Below are positions 14,701-20,112 of a DNA stretch of 64,000 bases, in pieces. Position numbers and translations under genes: made by a program. The stretch is from NCBI GenBank assembly GCA_947500575.1, contig CANMSI010000006.1, positions 124,001 to 188,000 on the forward strand, written 5' to 3'. Below the pieces are notes generated by a model. It did not search any database. It saw only the letters and a list, made by a program, of their open reading frames with translations, and was not told the origin of the DNA. The stretch's first letter is position 1. Each line of letters opens with the position of its first letter. This DNA comes from an uncultured Flavobacteriaceae bacterium (GTDB lineage: Bacteria; Bacteroidota; Bacteroidia; Flavobacteriales; Flavobacteriaceae).

Positions 14701-14950
14701 GGAAAAAGGGAATCAACTTTTTCAAAAACTTAAAAAAGTATATCAGGAGCAGCTCAACTACTATGCACATATGCCCTTGGATGAACAGTACCATAAGATA
14801 GAAATCATCATAGGGGAAATGGAAGGATATAGCAGAATTATTGACATACTAGCACATAATGATGTTCATGCTTTGGCTGAAAAGGAAACCTTGATTTTTA
14901 ATGAATATTTAGATCAGTTTCAACACTTTTTTAAACAAGATCAGAATTAA
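11711..14950 (+). CDS. DUF2723 family large membrane protein (GT-C glycosyltransferase-like)
   Basis: A 1079-residue protein. The N-terminal half holds many membrane segments and the DUF2723 start, with the acidic motif FWDCGEYITAA and AHPPGAPL. The C-terminal half is a large soluble domain. The acidic loop plus multi-spanning layout resembles PMT-type GT-C glycosyltransferases that use lipid-linked sugars; DUF2723 proteins are very common in Bacteroidota. A role in glycosylation at the membrane is inferred, with no donor or acceptor evident. Its stop overlaps the convergent gldA stop by 4 nt. Confidence 0.85.
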   Translation: MNTSSFKKWDIYLGWFCFSIALLIYSLTVEPTNSFWDCGEYITAAAKLEVAHPPGAPLLQMIGAFFSMFALHPEQIAVMVNYVSVVSSAFTILFLFWTLTNLTKKLVGGNKKKLPQSKAVAILGSGLIGAMTFTFSDSFWFNAVETEVYSTASLVMAVLLWLGLKWIDTIEDPRSHRWLILISFIVGLTFGVQFMGFLAIPSITLLYFFKRFKKLTLKKFLISNAIAVVLLMAIYKFSLTYVLKLFGWSEVFFVNEMGLPFNTGSLLMGLLFLMVFVMSLRYTWKRNYKTANTTILCILFLVLGFSSWLMLPIRANANVVINENNPSDARALLAYYNREQYPSTDSPFYGSYYSDGFASAGESIDEKPKYEKDTILGKYKIVNAYKDALRGPNPKHQGWFPRMWSDQNAENYIQFFGALKFKIKRSYRGNKEVVSRVNQFRNQYNNGEIDAAGYVSFLKDFERYIEVIPPTLGENLKFMFQFQFNYMYWRYFMWNFVGRQNDIQGRYDGNGEWLSGILFIDNLRLETQENLPSDVLQNKGRNTYFFLPLILGLIGIFFQILKNPKQFWVLFVFFLFTGIAIQFYTNPTIFQPRERDYSLVGSFYIFSLWIGLGVYGLSCSLQKWLQPKILSPAVILICLLAVPGLMAFQNWDDHDRSNKYTANSMAKAYLDGTQEDVGAILFTTGDNDTFPLWYVQEIEGYRTDVRIMVTTYSNTDWYIDQMKRKAYESDPIPSQLTHDAYKWGTRDAIYYQPLTDRRWSIQDFMKWVASDEPQTKIRSLLEKNGASLEGYSESDLEMVFYPTNKIRVPVNKKNVVELGLVKEKDTSLIVDYMDIDLPTTGIGKNSIIMLDILANNDWERPLYFSGGSFDDSEYLWLKDYLQLDALVYKLIPIKTAYSGALSMGRIDNDLMYDIVNKWEWGNGGDPTIYHDPQTRKQAGVSLRLSLARLLESLLAAGEIRKAARIIELAMTHIPVEHYGYYAFVEPFLDGYFKVGESEKGNQLFQKLKKVYQEQLNYYAHMPLDEQYHKIEIIIGEMEGYSRIIDILAHNDVHALAEKETLIFNEYLDQFQHFFKQDQN

Positions 14951-15843
14951 GATTGCGTTAGTTCCGTAAACAAACTCTCTAAGTTTTTATTTTTTCTGCT
15001 AAGTTGAAGCGTTTTTAATTCGTTATCATGGGCAAAATCAAAAACAGCAGGCCGCATGTCTTTGGAAGTATTAAAGGTAATATCATAAACAAAACCGCCC
15101 GTGTTTTTTACAGTTTTTACGTTTGGTAATTTTTGTAGTAATACTTCTTCAACTCTATAATCAAACTCTACTTCTATAATTTGCTCGTTTTCCTCGCGCA
15201 GATCTTCTAGTCTTTTATCCGCTACTAAAACACCTTTGTTGATAATAAGTACCCGATCACAAACCGCTTCTACTTCCTTCATAATATGAGTGGATAATAA
15301 AATGGTTTTCTCTTTTCCTATCGTCTTAATAAGCTTCCTGATTTCTAATAATTGATTTGGATCTAAACCTGTTGTGGGTTCATCTAATATTAATACCTCC
15401 GGATCGTGCAATAAGGCCGCTGCTAATCCAACTCTTTGGCGATACCCTTTGGAAAGTTGCCCAATTTTTTTATGAGCCTCGGGTGTTAAGCCTGTTTGCT
15501 CTATAACGGCTTCAATCCTATTTTTATCAGCTTTATATACATCTGCATTGAATCGTAAATACTCTTTTACATACATATCTAAATGTAGTGGATTGTGCTC
15601 TGGTAAGTATCCAACGCTTTGCTGTACACTTTTTTTATTTGTAAGCACATCAAAAGAGTTTACTGTTGCTATTCCTTCATCTGCCTGATGATAGGTTGTT
15701 AAGATTTTCATCATGGTAGATTTACCTGCTCCGTTGGGACCAAGAAAACCTACAATTTCACCTTTGTTTATCGAAAAAGAGACATCATTAAGGGCTTTTT
15801 GAGTGCCAAAAATCTTGGTAATGTTTGCAACGTCTATAGACAT
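14947..15843 (-). CDS. gldA: Gliding motility ABC transporter ATP-binding protein GldA
   Basis: A 298-residue ABC ATPase with Walker A GPNGAGKST (residues 35-43), signature SKGYRQ (from 131), Walker B LILDE (151-155) and the switch His in STHIMKE. The sequence from the N-terminus (MSIDVANITKIFG) through the C-terminal extension fits the GldA family, which is almost always about 297 residues. GldA works with GldF and GldG, which are not in this window, in flavobacterial gliding. It is convergent with the DUF2723 gene with a 4-nt overlap of stop codons. Confidence 0.9.
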   Translation of the reverse strand: MSIDVANITKIFGTQKALNDVSFSINKGEIVGFLGPNGAGKSTMMKILTTYHQADEGIATVNSFDVLTNKKSVQQSVGYLPEHNPLHLDMYVKEYLRFNADVYKADKNRIEAVIEQTGLTPEAHKKIGQLSKGYRQRVGLAAALLHDPEVLILDEPTTGLDPNQLLEIRKLIKTIGKEKTILLSTHIMKEVEAVCDRVLIINKGVLVADKRLEDLREENEQIIEVEFDYRVEEVLLQKLPNVKTVKNTGGFVYDITFNTSKDMRPAVFDFAHDNELKTLQLSRKNKNLESLFTELTQS

Positions 15844-15986
15844 ATCATCTAATTTTTGGTAAAAATAAGCAATTCGGCAGAGGAACCTACAATCGTATTA
15901 TTCATAATTTTTAAGCTGTTTTTTATTTAATTTATCAATAAAAAGTGCTTAAAACAGTGTTTTACAAAAAAATGTAGCAAAGCAAT

Positions 15987-16015
15987 TTGATATTTCATTT
16001 TAATAATTACCTTAG
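15987..16015 (+). promoter_or_regulatory. Candidate promoter of the aromatic amino acid operon
   Basis: TTG at 15987-15989 and TACCTTAG at 16008-16015 are 18 nt apart and fit TTG-N-TAnnTTTG with one mismatch. A start near 16021 would give a leader beginning about 12 nt before the leader peptide ATG. The rest of 15844-15986 is A+T-rich and shows nothing recognisable. Confidence 0.45.
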
Positions 16016-16033
16016 TCGCTCAATTGATTTGAA

Positions 16034-16105
16034 ATGAAGAATTTTTTCTGGAACAGCTTTTATTTTTACTTCTACTTTTTTAGTAGAGGCATGAGACTGT
16101 TGTAG
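16034..16105 (+). CDS. Aromatic amino acid operon leader peptide (attenuation control)
   Basis: A 23-codon reading frame, ATG 16034 to TAG 16103-16105. Residues 4-16 contain seven Phe, three Tyr and one Trp, including FYFYFYFF (residues 9-16). This is far beyond chance and lies directly upstream of genes for Phe/Tyr synthesis. The last codons overlap the left arm of an antiterminator (16090-16098). The peptide itself probably has no function; ribosome progress over the aromatic codons should sense charged tRNA-Phe and tRNA-Tyr. Confidence 0.9.
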   Translation: MKNFFWNSFYFYFYFFSRGMRLL

Positions 16106-16138
16106 ATAATATGAACATATTAATATCAAAGTCTCGTG
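16090..16138 (+). promoter_or_regulatory. Antiterminator stem of the aromatic attenuator
   Basis: CATGAGACT (16090-16098) can pair over all nine bases with AGTCTCGTG (16130-16138), with one G-U wobble. The right arm is also the left arm of the terminator, so the two structures exclude each other. A ribosome stalled on the aromatic codons leaves 16090-16098 free. One that reaches the stop codon at 16103 covers it. Confidence 0.85.
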
Positions 16139-16158
16139 AAAAACGAGGCTTTTTTTTT
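16130..16158 (+). terminator. Attenuator terminator upstream of pheA
   Basis: The 8-bp stem AGTCTCGT (16130-16137) / ACGAGGCT (16143-16150) has a five-base loop and runs into nine T residues (16150-16158). It sits 13 nt before the first structural gene, so it is a leader terminator and not the end of an upstream gene. The upstream gene, gldA, is on the other strand and points away. Confidence 0.92.
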
Positions 16159-16171
16159 GATCAATATTTAA

Positions 16172-16999
16172 ATGAGTTTAAAAATAGCCATTCAAGGAAT
16201 AAAAGGTTCCAACCACCATCAGGTGGCAAAGGAATGTTTTGGTAATACTGTAGATTTGGTAGAGTGCCTTTCTTTTGACGGGTTGGTACAAGAACTACTA
16301 AATGGGAATGCAGATCAAGGTATTATGGCCATAGAGAATTCCATTGCAGGTTCTATAATTCCTAACTACGCATTGCTTGATCAGAATAACTTGCACATTA
16401 TTGGAGAGCATTATTTAGGAATTCATCATAACCTGATGGTTACTAAAGGTCAGAAAATAACAGCGATTGAAGAAGTGCACTCACATCCAATGGCACTGTT
16501 GCAATGCAAGGATTTTTTTAAAAGCTATCCTAAGATAAAATTGGTAGAAGATGTGGATACTGCGGAGACTGCAAAAAGAATTCAAGAGCAGCGCTTACTG
16601 AATGTTGCCGCTATCGCACCAAAGGTGGCTGCGGAATTGTATGATTTGGAAATTATTGCGCATGAAATACAGACCATTAAAAATAATGCTACCCGATTCA
16701 TTATCGTGAAAACAAAAAATAGTGTACTCCCTGAGACAGAAATTAATAAGGCCTCTTTGAGATTTATTACAGAACACAAACGGGGAAGTTTAGCTGCAGT
16801 GTTAAATGTGATGAGCGATTGTAATTTAAATCTCACCAAGATTCAATCACTACCAGTTATAGAGCAACCATGGAAGTACTCCTTTTTTGTAGATGTTACC
16901 TTTGACTCCTACGAACATTATAAGAAAGCAAAATCCCTTTTGGGAATTATGGCGGAAGAATTGATGGTATTAGGTGAATATAAAAATGCACGTTTATGA
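16172..16999 (+). CDS. pheA: Prephenate dehydratase
   Basis: A 275-residue protein. It has an N-terminal prephenate dehydratase domain (IQGIKGSNHHQVAKECF; GIMAIENSIAGSI; NNATRFIIVK near residue 170) and a C-terminal ACT domain (about 190-270, with HKRGSLAAVLNVMSDCNLNLTKIQS). It converts prephenate to phenylpyruvate; the ACT domain usually gives feedback inhibition by Phe. It lacks a fused chorismate mutase, which is supplied by the last gene of the operon. It is the first gene after the aromatic attenuator and its stop overlaps the next start (ATGA). Confidence 0.95.
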   Translation: MSLKIAIQGIKGSNHHQVAKECFGNTVDLVECLSFDGLVQELLNGNADQGIMAIENSIAGSIIPNYALLDQNNLHIIGEHYLGIHHNLMVTKGQKITAIEEVHSHPMALLQCKDFFKSYPKIKLVEDVDTAETAKRIQEQRLLNVAAIAPKVAAELYDLEIIAHEIQTIKNNATRFIIVKTKNSVLPETEINKASLRFITEHKRGSLAAVLNVMSDCNLNLTKIQSLPVIEQPWKYSFFVDVTFDSYEHYKKAKSLLGIMAEELMVLGEYKNARL

Positions 17000-18144
17000 T
17001 AGCTACAGCAGATCGTCTACATACAGTGGAAGAGTACTACTTCTCTAAAAAACTAAGGGAAGTAAGAGGGCTTATAGGACAAGGAAAACCAATCATTAAT
17101 ATGGGAATTGGAAGTCCAGACTTGCTACCATCAAATAAGGTGTTGGAAGCGATAACACAAGCCTTAAGCGAACCAGGCGCACATCAATATCAGAGTTATC
17201 AAGGCCTACCCATATTAAGAGAAGCTATTGCTACCTTTTATAGAAGTAAATTCAATGTTGATGTAGACCCAAACAACGAAGTATTACCCTTAATGGGTTC
17301 AAAAGAGGGTATTATGCATATCAGCATGGCTTTTTTGAATGAAGGTGATGAGGTGTTAGTACCTAATCCGGGGTACCCTACGTATACATCTGTCACCAAA
17401 TTGTTAGGGGCAGTCCCTAGATACTACCACCTATGTTCTGACAAGGGTTGGTTTCCTGATCTCCAAACTTTGGAAAAGCAAGATCTTTCTAAAGTCAAAA
17501 TAATGTGGATCAACTATCCGCATATGCCAACGGGTGCATTGGCAAATAAGGAACAACTAGAAGAACTAGTGAATTTCGCATTACGCAATGAGATATTGTT
17601 GGTGAATGACAACCCCTATGGTTTTATACTAAATTCTAAACCTCTTAGTATATTGAGCGTAGCAGGGGCAAAAGAGGTTGCCTTGGAATTAAATTCACTG
17701 AGTAAAACTTTTAACATGGCTGGTTGGCGTGTTGGGATGGTCATAGGAAGTGCAGCCAATTTGAATGCAGTTCTAAAGGTAAAAAGTAATATGGATTCGG
17801 GCATGTTCTATGGAGTGCAAAAAGGCGCAGTAGCTGCTTTAAAAAGTGCAGATTCCTGGTTTACTCAATTAAATAAGGTGTATGCTTCCAGAAGAATTTT
17901 AGTTCATGAATTAGCAGATATACTTAATTGTAGTTATGATCCTAATGCAGCCGGGATGTTTGTTTGGGCAAAATTACCGACAAATCACGTTTCAGCAGAA
18001 GATTTCATAGATACGTTACTTCATGAAAAAGATATTTTCATTGCTCCTGGGACTATTTTTGGAAGTAATGGAGAAGGCTATATTCGTTTTTCACTCTGTG
18101 TAACAGAAGAAAAAATAAAAGAAGCCATTGAACGATTTAAATAA
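16996..18144 (+). CDS. Pyridoxal-phosphate aminotransferase, likely aromatic
   Basis: A 382-residue class I/II aminotransferase. The PLP lysine lies in SLSKTFNMAGWRVG (about residue 236); other family blocks are GIGSPDLLP, YQSYQGLPILREAIA and DNPYGF. Such enzymes include LL-DAP and aromatic aminotransferases. Its place between prephenate dehydratase and prephenate dehydrogenase suggests it makes Phe and Tyr from the keto acids. It starts within the last codon of pheA (4-nt overlap), so translation is likely coupled. Substrate preference cannot be read from sequence. Confidence 0.9.
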   Translation: MIATADRLHTVEEYYFSKKLREVRGLIGQGKPIINMGIGSPDLLPSNKVLEAITQALSEPGAHQYQSYQGLPILREAIATFYRSKFNVDVDPNNEVLPLMGSKEGIMHISMAFLNEGDEVLVPNPGYPTYTSVTKLLGAVPRYYHLCSDKGWFPDLQTLEKQDLSKVKIMWINYPHMPTGALANKEQLEELVNFALRNEILLVNDNPYGFILNSKPLSILSVAGAKEVALELNSLSKTFNMAGWRVGMVIGSAANLNAVLKVKSNMDSGMFYGVQKGAVAALKSADSWFTQLNKVYASRRILVHELADILNCSYDPNAAGMFVWAKLPTNHVSAEDFIDTLLHEKDIFIAPGTIFGSNGEGYIRFSLCVTEEKIKEAIERFK

Positions 18145-18161: not shown

Positions 18162-19028
18162 ATGAATGTATTTGTAATTGGTATTGGATTAATAGGCGGT
18201 TCTATGGCAAAGGATATAAAACGGTTATATCCTAGTGCTAAAATCTATGGAATAGATACGAACGATGCTCATTTGGAAGAAGCCTTGACCTTGGAATTAA
18301 TCGATGCTAAGTCTACATATGAAGAACTTTCCAAGGCAGATATGGTTATTGTAAGTATCCCTGTGGATGTCATGGTAAAAACGATGCCAAGGATTTTGGA
18401 AGCCATTCAGGATGATGCTGTGGTTATTGACGTAGGATCTACTAAGTCATTGATCTGTAAAACGCTTGAAAACCACCCAAGGAGGAGAAATTTTTTGGCA
18501 TGCCACCCCATCTCGGGTACAGAATTTTCAGGACCGTCGGCGGCAGAAGAAGGTTTATACATCGGGAAAACCAATATAATCTGTGAGGTTGAAAAAACGG
18601 CATTTAAATTACAGGAAAAAGCCTTGGAAGTATTCTCTAAAATGGGAATGCGGATACGATATATGAACCCAGATGCGCATGACAAACACATTGCTTACGT
18701 CTCGCACTTATCACATATAAGTTCTTTTATGTTGGGAAAGACCGTTATAGAAAAGGAAAAAAATGAGCGCGATATTTTTGATATGGCGGGATCTGGATTT
18801 GGGAGCACGGTTAGGTTAGCTAAAAGCTCTCCAGCAATGTGGACGCCAATTTTTAAGCAAAACAAGGAGAATGTTGTAGAGACCCTAGAAGAATACATCC
18901 AGAATCTAAAGGCATTTAAGCAATTGCTTTTAGACGATGATTATCAAGGCATTTTTAAAGAGATGGATAATACCAATAAAATAAAAGAAATATTAAACGG
19001 AATACCACAAAATAAATTAGAACAGTAA
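18162..19028 (+). CDS. tyrA: Prephenate dehydrogenase
   Basis: A 288-residue enzyme with an N-terminal NAD-binding GIGLIGGSMAKD motif (residues 7-18). The TyrA blocks are seen: VIDVGSTKS, ACHPISGTEFSGPSAA and the HDKHIAYVSHLSH segment with catalytic and substrate-binding His. It oxidatively decarboxylates prephenate to 4-hydroxyphenylpyruvate. The length fits a stand-alone TyrA without a chorismate mutase or ACT domain. It follows the aminotransferase by 17 nt and precedes the DAHP synthase by 1 nt. Confidence 0.94.
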   Translation: MNVFVIGIGLIGGSMAKDIKRLYPSAKIYGIDTNDAHLEEALTLELIDAKSTYEELSKADMVIVSIPVDVMVKTMPRILEAIQDDAVVIDVGSTKSLICKTLENHPRRRNFLACHPISGTEFSGPSAAEEGLYIGKTNIICEVEKTAFKLQEKALEVFSKMGMRIRYMNPDAHDKHIAYVSHLSHISSFMLGKTVIEKEKNERDIFDMAGSGFGSTVRLAKSSPAMWTPIFKQNKENVVETLEEYIQNLKAFKQLLLDDDYQGIFKEMDNTNKIKEILNGIPQNKLEQ

Positions 19029-19029
19029 A

Positions 19030-20112
19030 ATGGAGAATTCAAAACAAATGAGATCATGGTTAGACGATATGGGATTAGACCATCCTTTAGTGATAGCGGG
19101 GCCATGCAGTGCGGAAACAGAGGAGCAGGTGCTAAAAATTGCACATGATTTAAAAAATACGGATGTCAACTACTATCGTGCGGGTATATGGAAACCAAGA
19201 ACGCGCCCTGGTAATTTTGAAGGGGTTGGGGCTATTGGTTTAAAATGGTTACAAAGAGTAAAAGAAGAGACCGGTTTAAAAACGGCAACCGAAGTAGCAA
19301 ATAGGGCACATGTAGATTTGGCTTTGGAGCACGATATAGATCTACTTTGGATAGGAGCTAGGTCAACTGTAAGTCCTTTTATCGTGCAAGAAATTGCGGA
19401 TGCGTTAGAAGGAACGGATAAGGTTGTATTGATTAAAAACCCTGTAAATCCAGACTTATCGCTTTGGCTAGGAGCAGTGGAGCGCTTGTATTCTGCAGAC
19501 ATTAAGAAATTAGGAGTTATTCACAGGGGGTTTTCTACCTATGAAAAAACCAAGTATAGAAACATACCAGAATGGCAATTGGCCATTGAATTACAAACGC
19601 GTTTTCCAGATTTACCTTTAATTAACGACCCATCTCATATTACAGGAAAACGAGATATGATTTTTGACGTTTCCCAAACAGCGCTCGACCTAAATTTTGA
19701 TGGTCTAATGATAGAAACGCATCACGATCCAGATAATGCTTGGAGCGACGCAGCGCAGCAGGTAACCCCAGATAGGTTGGTGCAGATTATGGAAGATTTA
19801 AGGATTAGAAAAGAAACGAGTGAGGAAGCTGAATACAGCAGCAAATTAAATAATTTGAGAGCTCAAATAGATGTAATAGACAATCAAATTATAGAAACTT
19901 TAGGGAAACGAATGAAGGTGGCAGATGCCATTGGAGGTTTAAAAAAACAGCGAAACGTTGCGGTTTTACAAACCAATCGTTGGAATTCTATTTTGGGGAA
20001 TATGATTCTAGAAGGAGAGTCTAAAGGCTTAAGTGAAGAATTTGTTTTACGCATGTTTAAAGCAATTCATCAAGAATCCATTAACCATCAGGAAAAGATT
20101 ATCAAGGGATAA
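19030..20112 (+). CDS. Bifunctional DAHP synthase / chorismate mutase type II
   Basis: A 360-residue fusion. Residues 1-260 are a class I-beta (KdsA-like) DAHP synthase: IAGPCSAETEEQ, RAGIWKPRTRPGNFEG, LWIGARSTVSPF, NDPSHITGKRD and the metal-site segment MIETHHDPDNAWSD. Residues 275-355 are an AroQ chorismate mutase helix bundle (LRAQIDVIDNQIIETLGKRMKVADAIG). It runs both the first step of the shikimate pathway and the branch-point step to prephenate, so the operon has entry and exit enzymes together. A terminator follows directly. Confidence 0.94.
   Translation: MENSKQMRSWLDDMGLDHPLVIAGPCSAETEEQVLKIAHDLKNTDVNYYRAGIWKPRTRPGNFEGVGAIGLKWLQRVKEETGLKTATEVANRAHVDLALEHDIDLLWIGARSTVSPFIVQEIADALEGTDKVVLIKNPVNPDLSLWLGAVERLYSADIKKLGVIHRGFSTYEKTKYRNIPEWQLAIELQTRFPDLPLINDPSHITGKRDMIFDVSQTALDLNFDGLMIETHHDPDNAWSDAAQQVTPDRLVQIMEDLRIRKETSEEAEYSSKLNNLRAQIDVIDNQIIETLGKRMKVADAIGGLKKQRNVAVLQTNRWNSILGNMILEGESKGLSEEFVLRMFKAIHQESINHQEKIIKG

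Follow-up and report, generated by a model that had tools for sequence, protein, structure and literature searches.

The operon for aromatic amino acid synthesis that begins with pheA in an uncultured Flavobacteriaceae bacterium appears to be preceded by a classical four-region, ribosome-mediated transcription attenuator which answers to charged tRNA-Phe and tRNA-Tyr, and we put the probability of this reading at roughly nine in ten. The element lies in a 64,000-nucleotide stretch of contig CANMSI010000006.1, hereafter the window. A preliminary description of this DNA had proposed translation-coupled attenuation here, and comparison with relatives lends that proposal strong support through the reading frame, the leader-specific match between regions 2 and 3, the spacing of the parts and their conservation.

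In the proposed mechanism, transcription would start near 16020, a short distance ahead of the leader frame. With ample Phe and Tyr, the translating ribosome would reach the stop codon and cover region 2, so that regions 3 and 4 could pair and RNA polymerase would stop at the T tract before pheA. When either amino acid is short, the ribosome would stall in the aromatic run and open the 1:2 stem, leaving region 2 free; region 2 would then capture region 3, the terminator would not form and the operon would be read. The frame, the stems, their spacing and their conservation come from the comparison, and from these we infer stalling, a choice of structure during transcription, control of read-through and the part played by Tyr. 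Attenuators of this kind are already known, and the pheA leader is a well-supported further case. It is also rather likely that a wider reading applies, in which the element is a two-input switch (Phe or Tyr) over the entry to the shikimate pathway and both terminal branches, its Trp codon serves RNA structure only, and it has been widely inherited in Bacteroidia, the class of this genome, within a set of leader-peptide attenuators for phe/tyr, trp, his and probably ilv.

Leader frame, promoter and operon

The leader frame and the terminator are situated inside a 328-base gap (15844-16171) that separates divergent genes (Table 1). Because the upstream ATPase gene is divergent and on the minus strand, the terminator can serve only a transcript which starts within this gap. 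Aromatic residues occupy codons 4, 5, 6 and 9-16 of the frame. The preliminary description had noted these 23 codons with 11 aromatic ones among codons 4-16 before the pheA operon, and this was confirmed: 11 aromatic codons in 13 were found in none of 5000 dinucleotide shuffles of 15844-16171 (the best had 10, once), and among frames of 8-45 codons on both strands of the 64 kb window no other had at least nine. Judged by its sequence, the locus has the short frame rich in codons for the operon's product amino acid that an attenuator of this type would require.

A promoter of flavobacterial type likely precedes the leader frame. Its two candidate elements, TTTG at 15986 and TACCTTAG at 16008, were assigned from the Bacteroidetes/flavobacterial promoter consensus. 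Of 150 relatives, 137 have the TAnnTTwG motif at a distance of 3-40 nt upstream of the leader ATG, whereas only 5 have it at a control site located another 120 nt upstream. A TTG was located 15-23 nt before the -7 motif in 85/150 relatives, a figure that stands without a control.

Downstream, the gene order pheA, aminotransferase, tyrA and DAHPS/chorismate mutase was found in 77 of 80 relatives' loci, the other three being short loci which show its beginning. For the aminotransferase, none of the NCBIfam models shown was above its cut-off. The operon would make chorismate precursors as well as Phe and Tyr, the two end products, and a switch with two inputs would suit it.

Table 1. Coordinates of the pheA leader, its putative promoter and the neighboring genes in the window
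Feature	Coordinates	Strand	Description
ABC transporter ATPase, upstream neighbor	14947-15843	-	Divergent from pheA
Likely -33 element, TTTG	15986-15989	+	18 nt before the -7 element; read from sequence
Likely -7 element, TACCTTAG	16008-16015	+	TAnnTTwG motif common in relatives
Leader peptide frame, MKNFFWNSFYFYFYFFSRGMRLL	16034-16105	+	23 codons; ATG at 16034, stop TAG at 16103-16105
Aromatic run, codons 4-16	16043-16081	+	11 aromatic codons: 7 Phe, 3 Tyr, 1 Trp
Region 1	16048-16060	+	13-pair stem with 16093-16105 in alignment A1; 11 of 13 positions pair in the window itself
Region 2	16090-16105	+	16093-16105 pairs with region 1; 16090-16098 pairs with region 3
Region 3	16128-16138	+	Terminator left arm 16128-16137; partner of region 2 16130-16138
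Region 4	16143-16152	+	Terminator right arm
T tract	16150-16158	+	Nine T, from sequence
pheA, prephenate dehydratase, first operon gene	16172-16999	+	PF00800, 191.7 bits
Aminotransferase class I/II	16996-18144	+	PF00155, 219.3 bits; 4-base overlap with pheA
tyrA, prephenate dehydrogenase	18162-19028	+	NF006307, 388 bits against a cut-off of 295; PF02153
DAHP synthase fused to chorismate mutase type II	19030-20112	+	PF00793 and PF01817

RNA regions of the leader

Both the sequence and the computed structure place an intrinsic terminator between the leader frame and pheA. Its stem has 10 bp and runs into the T tract; the terminator and nine T of the preliminary description were thus retained, whereas its boundaries of 16130-16150 had to be extended to 16128-16152. 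The pairing of the last codons with 16130-16138, also described there, was borne out as an antiterminator of 9 bp, one of them G-U, between CATGAGACT (16090-16098) and AGTCTCGTG. In contrast, the 1:2 stem (16048-16060 with 16093-16105) was absent from that description. Folding energies were well below those of shuffled sequences for both the antiterminator stretch (z -4.16) and the terminator (z -4.15). The antiterminator shares the left arm of the terminator. In the computations, with an assumed ribosome cover, a ribosome that has reached the frame's end would mask it, and one still in the aromatic run would not.

Survey of pheA upstream regions in Flavobacteriaceae

A PheA match was detected in 268 of 299 genomes of the family, and 140 of these were sampled (30 with the best matches, 30 from the weaker ones and 80 others). 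Together with 80 loci of a second collection, which overlaps the first in species, this gave 220 upstream regions. A script found a leader, a terminator and a pairing partner of at least 5 bp for the terminator left arm in 216 of the 220; a 5-bp partner arises easily by chance, so that the evidence for pairing is carried by the permutation test below and not by this count, and leaders were chosen by aromatic density, so that the frame, spacing, pairing and joint presence of Phe and Tyr are independent evidence and aromaticity is not. Removal of sequences with at least 90% likeness left 150 of the 216 positives as a non-redundant set.

Only one of the four misses was a real absence (L116, which has kept pheA without a leader). 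One locus (L139) is at a contig edge with almost no upstream sequence. Another (L205) has kept region 2 and the terminator by eye, with the leader start beyond the fetched stretch, and in the last (L209) all parts are complete by eye, the script having overlooked the terminator. Thus, nearly all of the Flavobacteriaceae examined share, by sequence, the arrangement of leader and terminator before pheA. Repeated stretches were observed before pheA in L116 and L205, and in the latter the end of the attenuator is about 600 bases upstream.

In 10 more distant loci (L111, L112, L114, L143, L153, L162, L171, L191, L196 and L212), the stop codon of the frame falls upstream of region 2, at its edge or inside it, and the run and the stems are kept. 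A ribosome at the stop codon of these leaders would cover less of region 2.

Coding signature and covariation of the stems

Three alignments, designated A1, A2 and A3 (71, 28 and 15 rows, respectively), were built from 114 of the 150 leaders, which were picked by eye on peptide type; the other 36 were left unaligned. Pairs were counted for 1:2 in A1 and A2, for 2:3 in A2 and for 3:4 in A3 only. MAFFT placed region 3 of A1 in two registers, and for this reason 2:3 and 3:4 were not counted on A1 and an alignment-free permutation test was used.

The preliminary description had proposed that leaders of relatives be aligned, with conserved aromatic runs and covarying stems as support and with stems kept beside a lost frame or lost aromatic codons as counterevidence. 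The aromatic runs proved to be conserved, and no row of the latter kind occurred among the 71 of A1. The four indels seen in the A1 frame (codon 4 to stop, relative to L031) each span three bases. Diversity across codons 9-16 (L031 numbering) was 0.08 at position 1, 0.055 at position 2 and 0.244 at position 3. The low diversity at the first two positions and the three-base indels indicate that, as judged from this alignment, selection acts on the amino acids of the aromatic run.

Pairing between regions 2 and 3 was specific to each leader. In the 150 leaders, the score of region 2 with its own region 3 was 17.36, compared with 14.07 for permuted partners (sd 0.194; the maximum of 2000 permutations was 14.75) and 10.22 for shuffled windows. 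A 2:3 helix of at least 6 bp could be formed by 144 of the 150, and variants occurred with matching partners, such as CGGGAC/GTCCCG, CGAGAC/GTCTCG, CCGGGTT/AACCCGG and GCCGGGACT/AGTCCCGGC. In A2 this helix is nearly invariant (99.4% paired) and is therefore uninformative by covariation.

The 13-pair 1:2 stem was paired in 92.0% of the cells of A1, compared with at most 57.3% when slid. Its covariation score was reached by none of 500 shuffles, although relatedness may inflate this result; the number of pairs changed on both sides was matched by 20 of 500 shuffles and that of pair types by 4 of 500. In A2 the stem was paired in 87.4% of cells (at most 63.9% when slid), and its covariation in this alignment was not above that of shuffles (score reached by 96/500). 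The bases of the 1:2 stem and those of 2:3 do not overlap in A2. In the distant relatives of A3, the covariation score of 3:4 was reached by 0/500 shuffles. A role of the 1:2 stem as protector is only partly supported.

Amino acids probably sensed by the leader

Every one of the 150 non-redundant leaders has at least one Phe and one Tyr codon within the final six codons of the run. Within the core of 12 codons, Tyr occurred at least twice in 148 of the 150. These observations speak against the possibility that the same attenuator senses Phe alone and that the Tyr codons are tolerated neighbors without regulatory weight, as does the presence of tyrA, by which the operon serves Tyr synthesis too. 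In favor of Phe alone, the core contains roughly two Phe codons for each Tyr codon (means of 5.63 and 2.92, respectively), and most leaders closely related to that of the window have Phe codons at the end of the run; on balance, we consider such a single-input attenuator unlikely.

Trp was examined as a third sensed amino acid and was judged less likely. It was found among the last six run codons in only 37/150 leaders. In favor of a Trp input, it occurs somewhere in the core in 117/150 and inside the run in 14 of 15 leaders of the A3 group. At the Trp place of A1, which falls within the 1:2 stem, 53 of 71 rows have Trp, 17 have Tyr or Phe and one has Gly, so that 18 rows are without Trp. The presence of Trp in A1 tracked a final pyrimidine in the last codon (35 and 18 versus 3 and 15; Fisher p 0.0003, uncorrected for relatedness), an association that fits the demand of the 1:2 stem. 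It looks, from these sequences, as if the Trp codon would mainly serve the 1:2 RNA structure.

The genome has a separate leader of the type MKLTTVNTWWWNSLRQTS before trpE, with its own Trp codons. Since Trp thus appears to have its own sensor, Phe and Tyr are the most likely inputs of the pheA leader. Of the several tRNAs that the preliminary description had suggested might be sensed at once, those for Phe and Tyr fit the comparison and that for Trp fits it less well.

Leaders before other amino acid operons

The trpE leader (L242, G000:C4) is situated 220 to 163 bases before the match to the trpE domain. In the same genome, a leader MRNRNTHHHFYTGTLAG precedes the match to the HisG domain by 305 to 251 bases (L241, G000:C2), and an Ile/Val-rich leader MKVNFNIISVVIIIPSGG precedes that to the IlvD domain by 442 to 385 bases (L243, G000:C2). 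By eye, each of the three is followed by a terminator-like hairpin. Flavobacteria more widely have a leader rich in Trp codons ahead of trpE and one rich in His codons ahead of hisG: in the family sample, WWW was found at 28 of 30 trpE loci and WW at the other two, and at least three His in seven codons at 27 of 28 hisG loci, with T runs following in both cases.

These leaders bear on an alternative in which the aromatic peptide itself would arrest the ribosome on an effector, independent of codon hunger. In TnaC-like leaders, the peptide stalls the ribosome in response to an effector. The peptide of the window's close group is indeed strongly conserved, with the consensus, drawn by eye, of MTKQYFWNGFYFYFFFKRGTGLF. 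However, the order and number of Phe and Tyr and the flanks of the peptide vary widely across the family, with only the Phe/Tyr run kept, the conserved end of the A1 peptide falls in RNA stems, and the leader runs consist of Trp at trpE and of His at hisG. Arrest by the nascent peptide is therefore very improbable.

Ribosome position and computed folding

The distance between the aromatic run and region 2 is tightly kept, the run ending 7-12 nt before region 2 in 192 of the 216 leaders. A negative distance was obtained for 17 of the 216; among those inspected (L128, L146, L149 and L158), the script had chosen another pairing.

The probability that region 3 pairs upstream was computed with a transcript that ends before region 4, on the assumption that the ribosome covers 11 nt beyond its A-site codon. 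In 150 leaders, this probability was 0.73-0.82 as long as the ribosome had not passed the penultimate codon of the aromatic run (0.80 at that codon), 0.69 at the last aromatic codon, 0.28 one codon later and 0.15 two codons later. The drop shifted with the assumed cover: a cover of 8 nt delayed it by about one codon, and a cover of 14 nt advanced it by one. The sharp drop was gone when the linkers were shuffled (both in 60 of the 150 leaders). The position of the drop just past the run and its loss in shuffled linkers indicate that, in the model, the aromatic run reaches about as far as ribosome stalling is useful.

With no ribosome and region 4 not yet made, the upstream pairing of region 3 was still 0.69, and the 1:2 stem did not strongly block 2:3 at equilibrium. 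With region 4 present, the mean equilibrium probability of the terminator was 0.93 without a ribosome and 0.82 with a ribosome at the aromatic codons. The terminator won at every ribosome position in many leaders and did not in some, including that of the window. We also considered equilibrium folding as a direct readout of switching, and it failed, the terminator being dominant at all positions in many leaders. As the terminator wins on average at equilibrium, the switch of the attenuator would have to be kinetic, with antitermination dependent on timing. The dominance of the terminator in these computations might also suit a partial, unregulated terminator whose sole effect is to reduce operon expression, with an incidental aromatic frame, but this is hardly credible given that none of 5000 shuffles gave such a frame, that the run appears to be under selection at the amino acid level, that region 2 matches its own region 3 and that the spacing between run and region 2 is tight.

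Distribution in the class and relation to known attenuators

The class-level table comprised 40 loci, a subset of the matches, of which 37 were in the class outside the family and three outside the class. An aromatic leader was detected in 24 of the 37 fetched genomes, and in 20 of the 24 the script also found a terminator. In the other 13 no leader was found by the script, and none of the three genomes outside the class reached the leader threshold. By this distribution, the attenuator is probably old in the class, with losses; convergence is the alternative. The comparison provides strong evidence that flavobacteria and many members of the class would control aromatic amino acid synthesis by leader attenuation.

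The pheA leader of E. coli encodes a Phe-rich peptide and follows the scheme of 1:2, 2:3 and 3:4 pairing. As in E. coli, pheA is the first gene here and the leader peptide is rich in Phe. In contrast to E. coli, Tyr codons are as constant as Phe codons here, and the operon additionally includes the aminotransferase, tyrA and DAHPS/chorismate mutase. The E. coli ilvGMEDA and thrABC leaders resemble the pheA leader in that the regulatory codons of a single leader represent several amino acids, although these are branched-chain amino acids or threonine and isoleucine there and Phe and Tyr here. The best Rfam match to the window's leader was the Phe_leader of E. coli pheA (RF01859), which spanned the whole model with 27.0 bits, below the gathering threshold of 55. 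The terminator part matched best, and of the 22 pairs shown for the model's first stem, 12 are nonstandard in the window. Among 20 relatives, none reached the RF01859 threshold; one (L145) had 33.9 bits, and there was no other match with E up to 0.05.

The preliminary description knew of no described case for this operon in flavobacteria, whereas earlier hints do exist. An attenuator was predicted in 2005 before pheA > hisHb > aroA-aroQ > tyrA of Bacteroides thetaiotaomicron (PMC1173090, Table 7), which belongs to the same phylum and has the same gene set; there it is a website-derived prediction, and the text of that paper does not use the term 'leader peptide'. A 2021 transcriptome of Flavobacterium psychrophilum reported structured 5' elements before pheA and hisG that are found in other genera, together with clues to leader-peptide attenuation before amino acid operons in general (PMC9723704). 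The element before pheA is very likely the same as ours, and the accessible parts of that paper give no anatomy, codons or leader-peptide assignment for pheA. In a B. thetaiotaomicron transcriptome, sORFs reminiscent of leader peptides were described in general terms (PMC7366714). Among open-licence papers, we found no account of the detailed anatomy of the pheA leader, its mixture of Phe and Tyr or its breadth. The anatomy obtained here is precise, is unmatched at threshold by any Rfam family and is directly testable in a tractable flavobacterium.

In the Rfam scan, the pheA leader had no match to a T-box or other riboswitch, and the only match over threshold in the window was a SAM riboswitch (RF00162) at 98-217 on the plus strand, with 67.3 bits against a threshold of 44.4. 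Among the relatives, a Flavo-1 RNA (RF01705, 78.6 bits) was observed upstream of pheA at L153:446-523:+, on the strand opposite to pheA.
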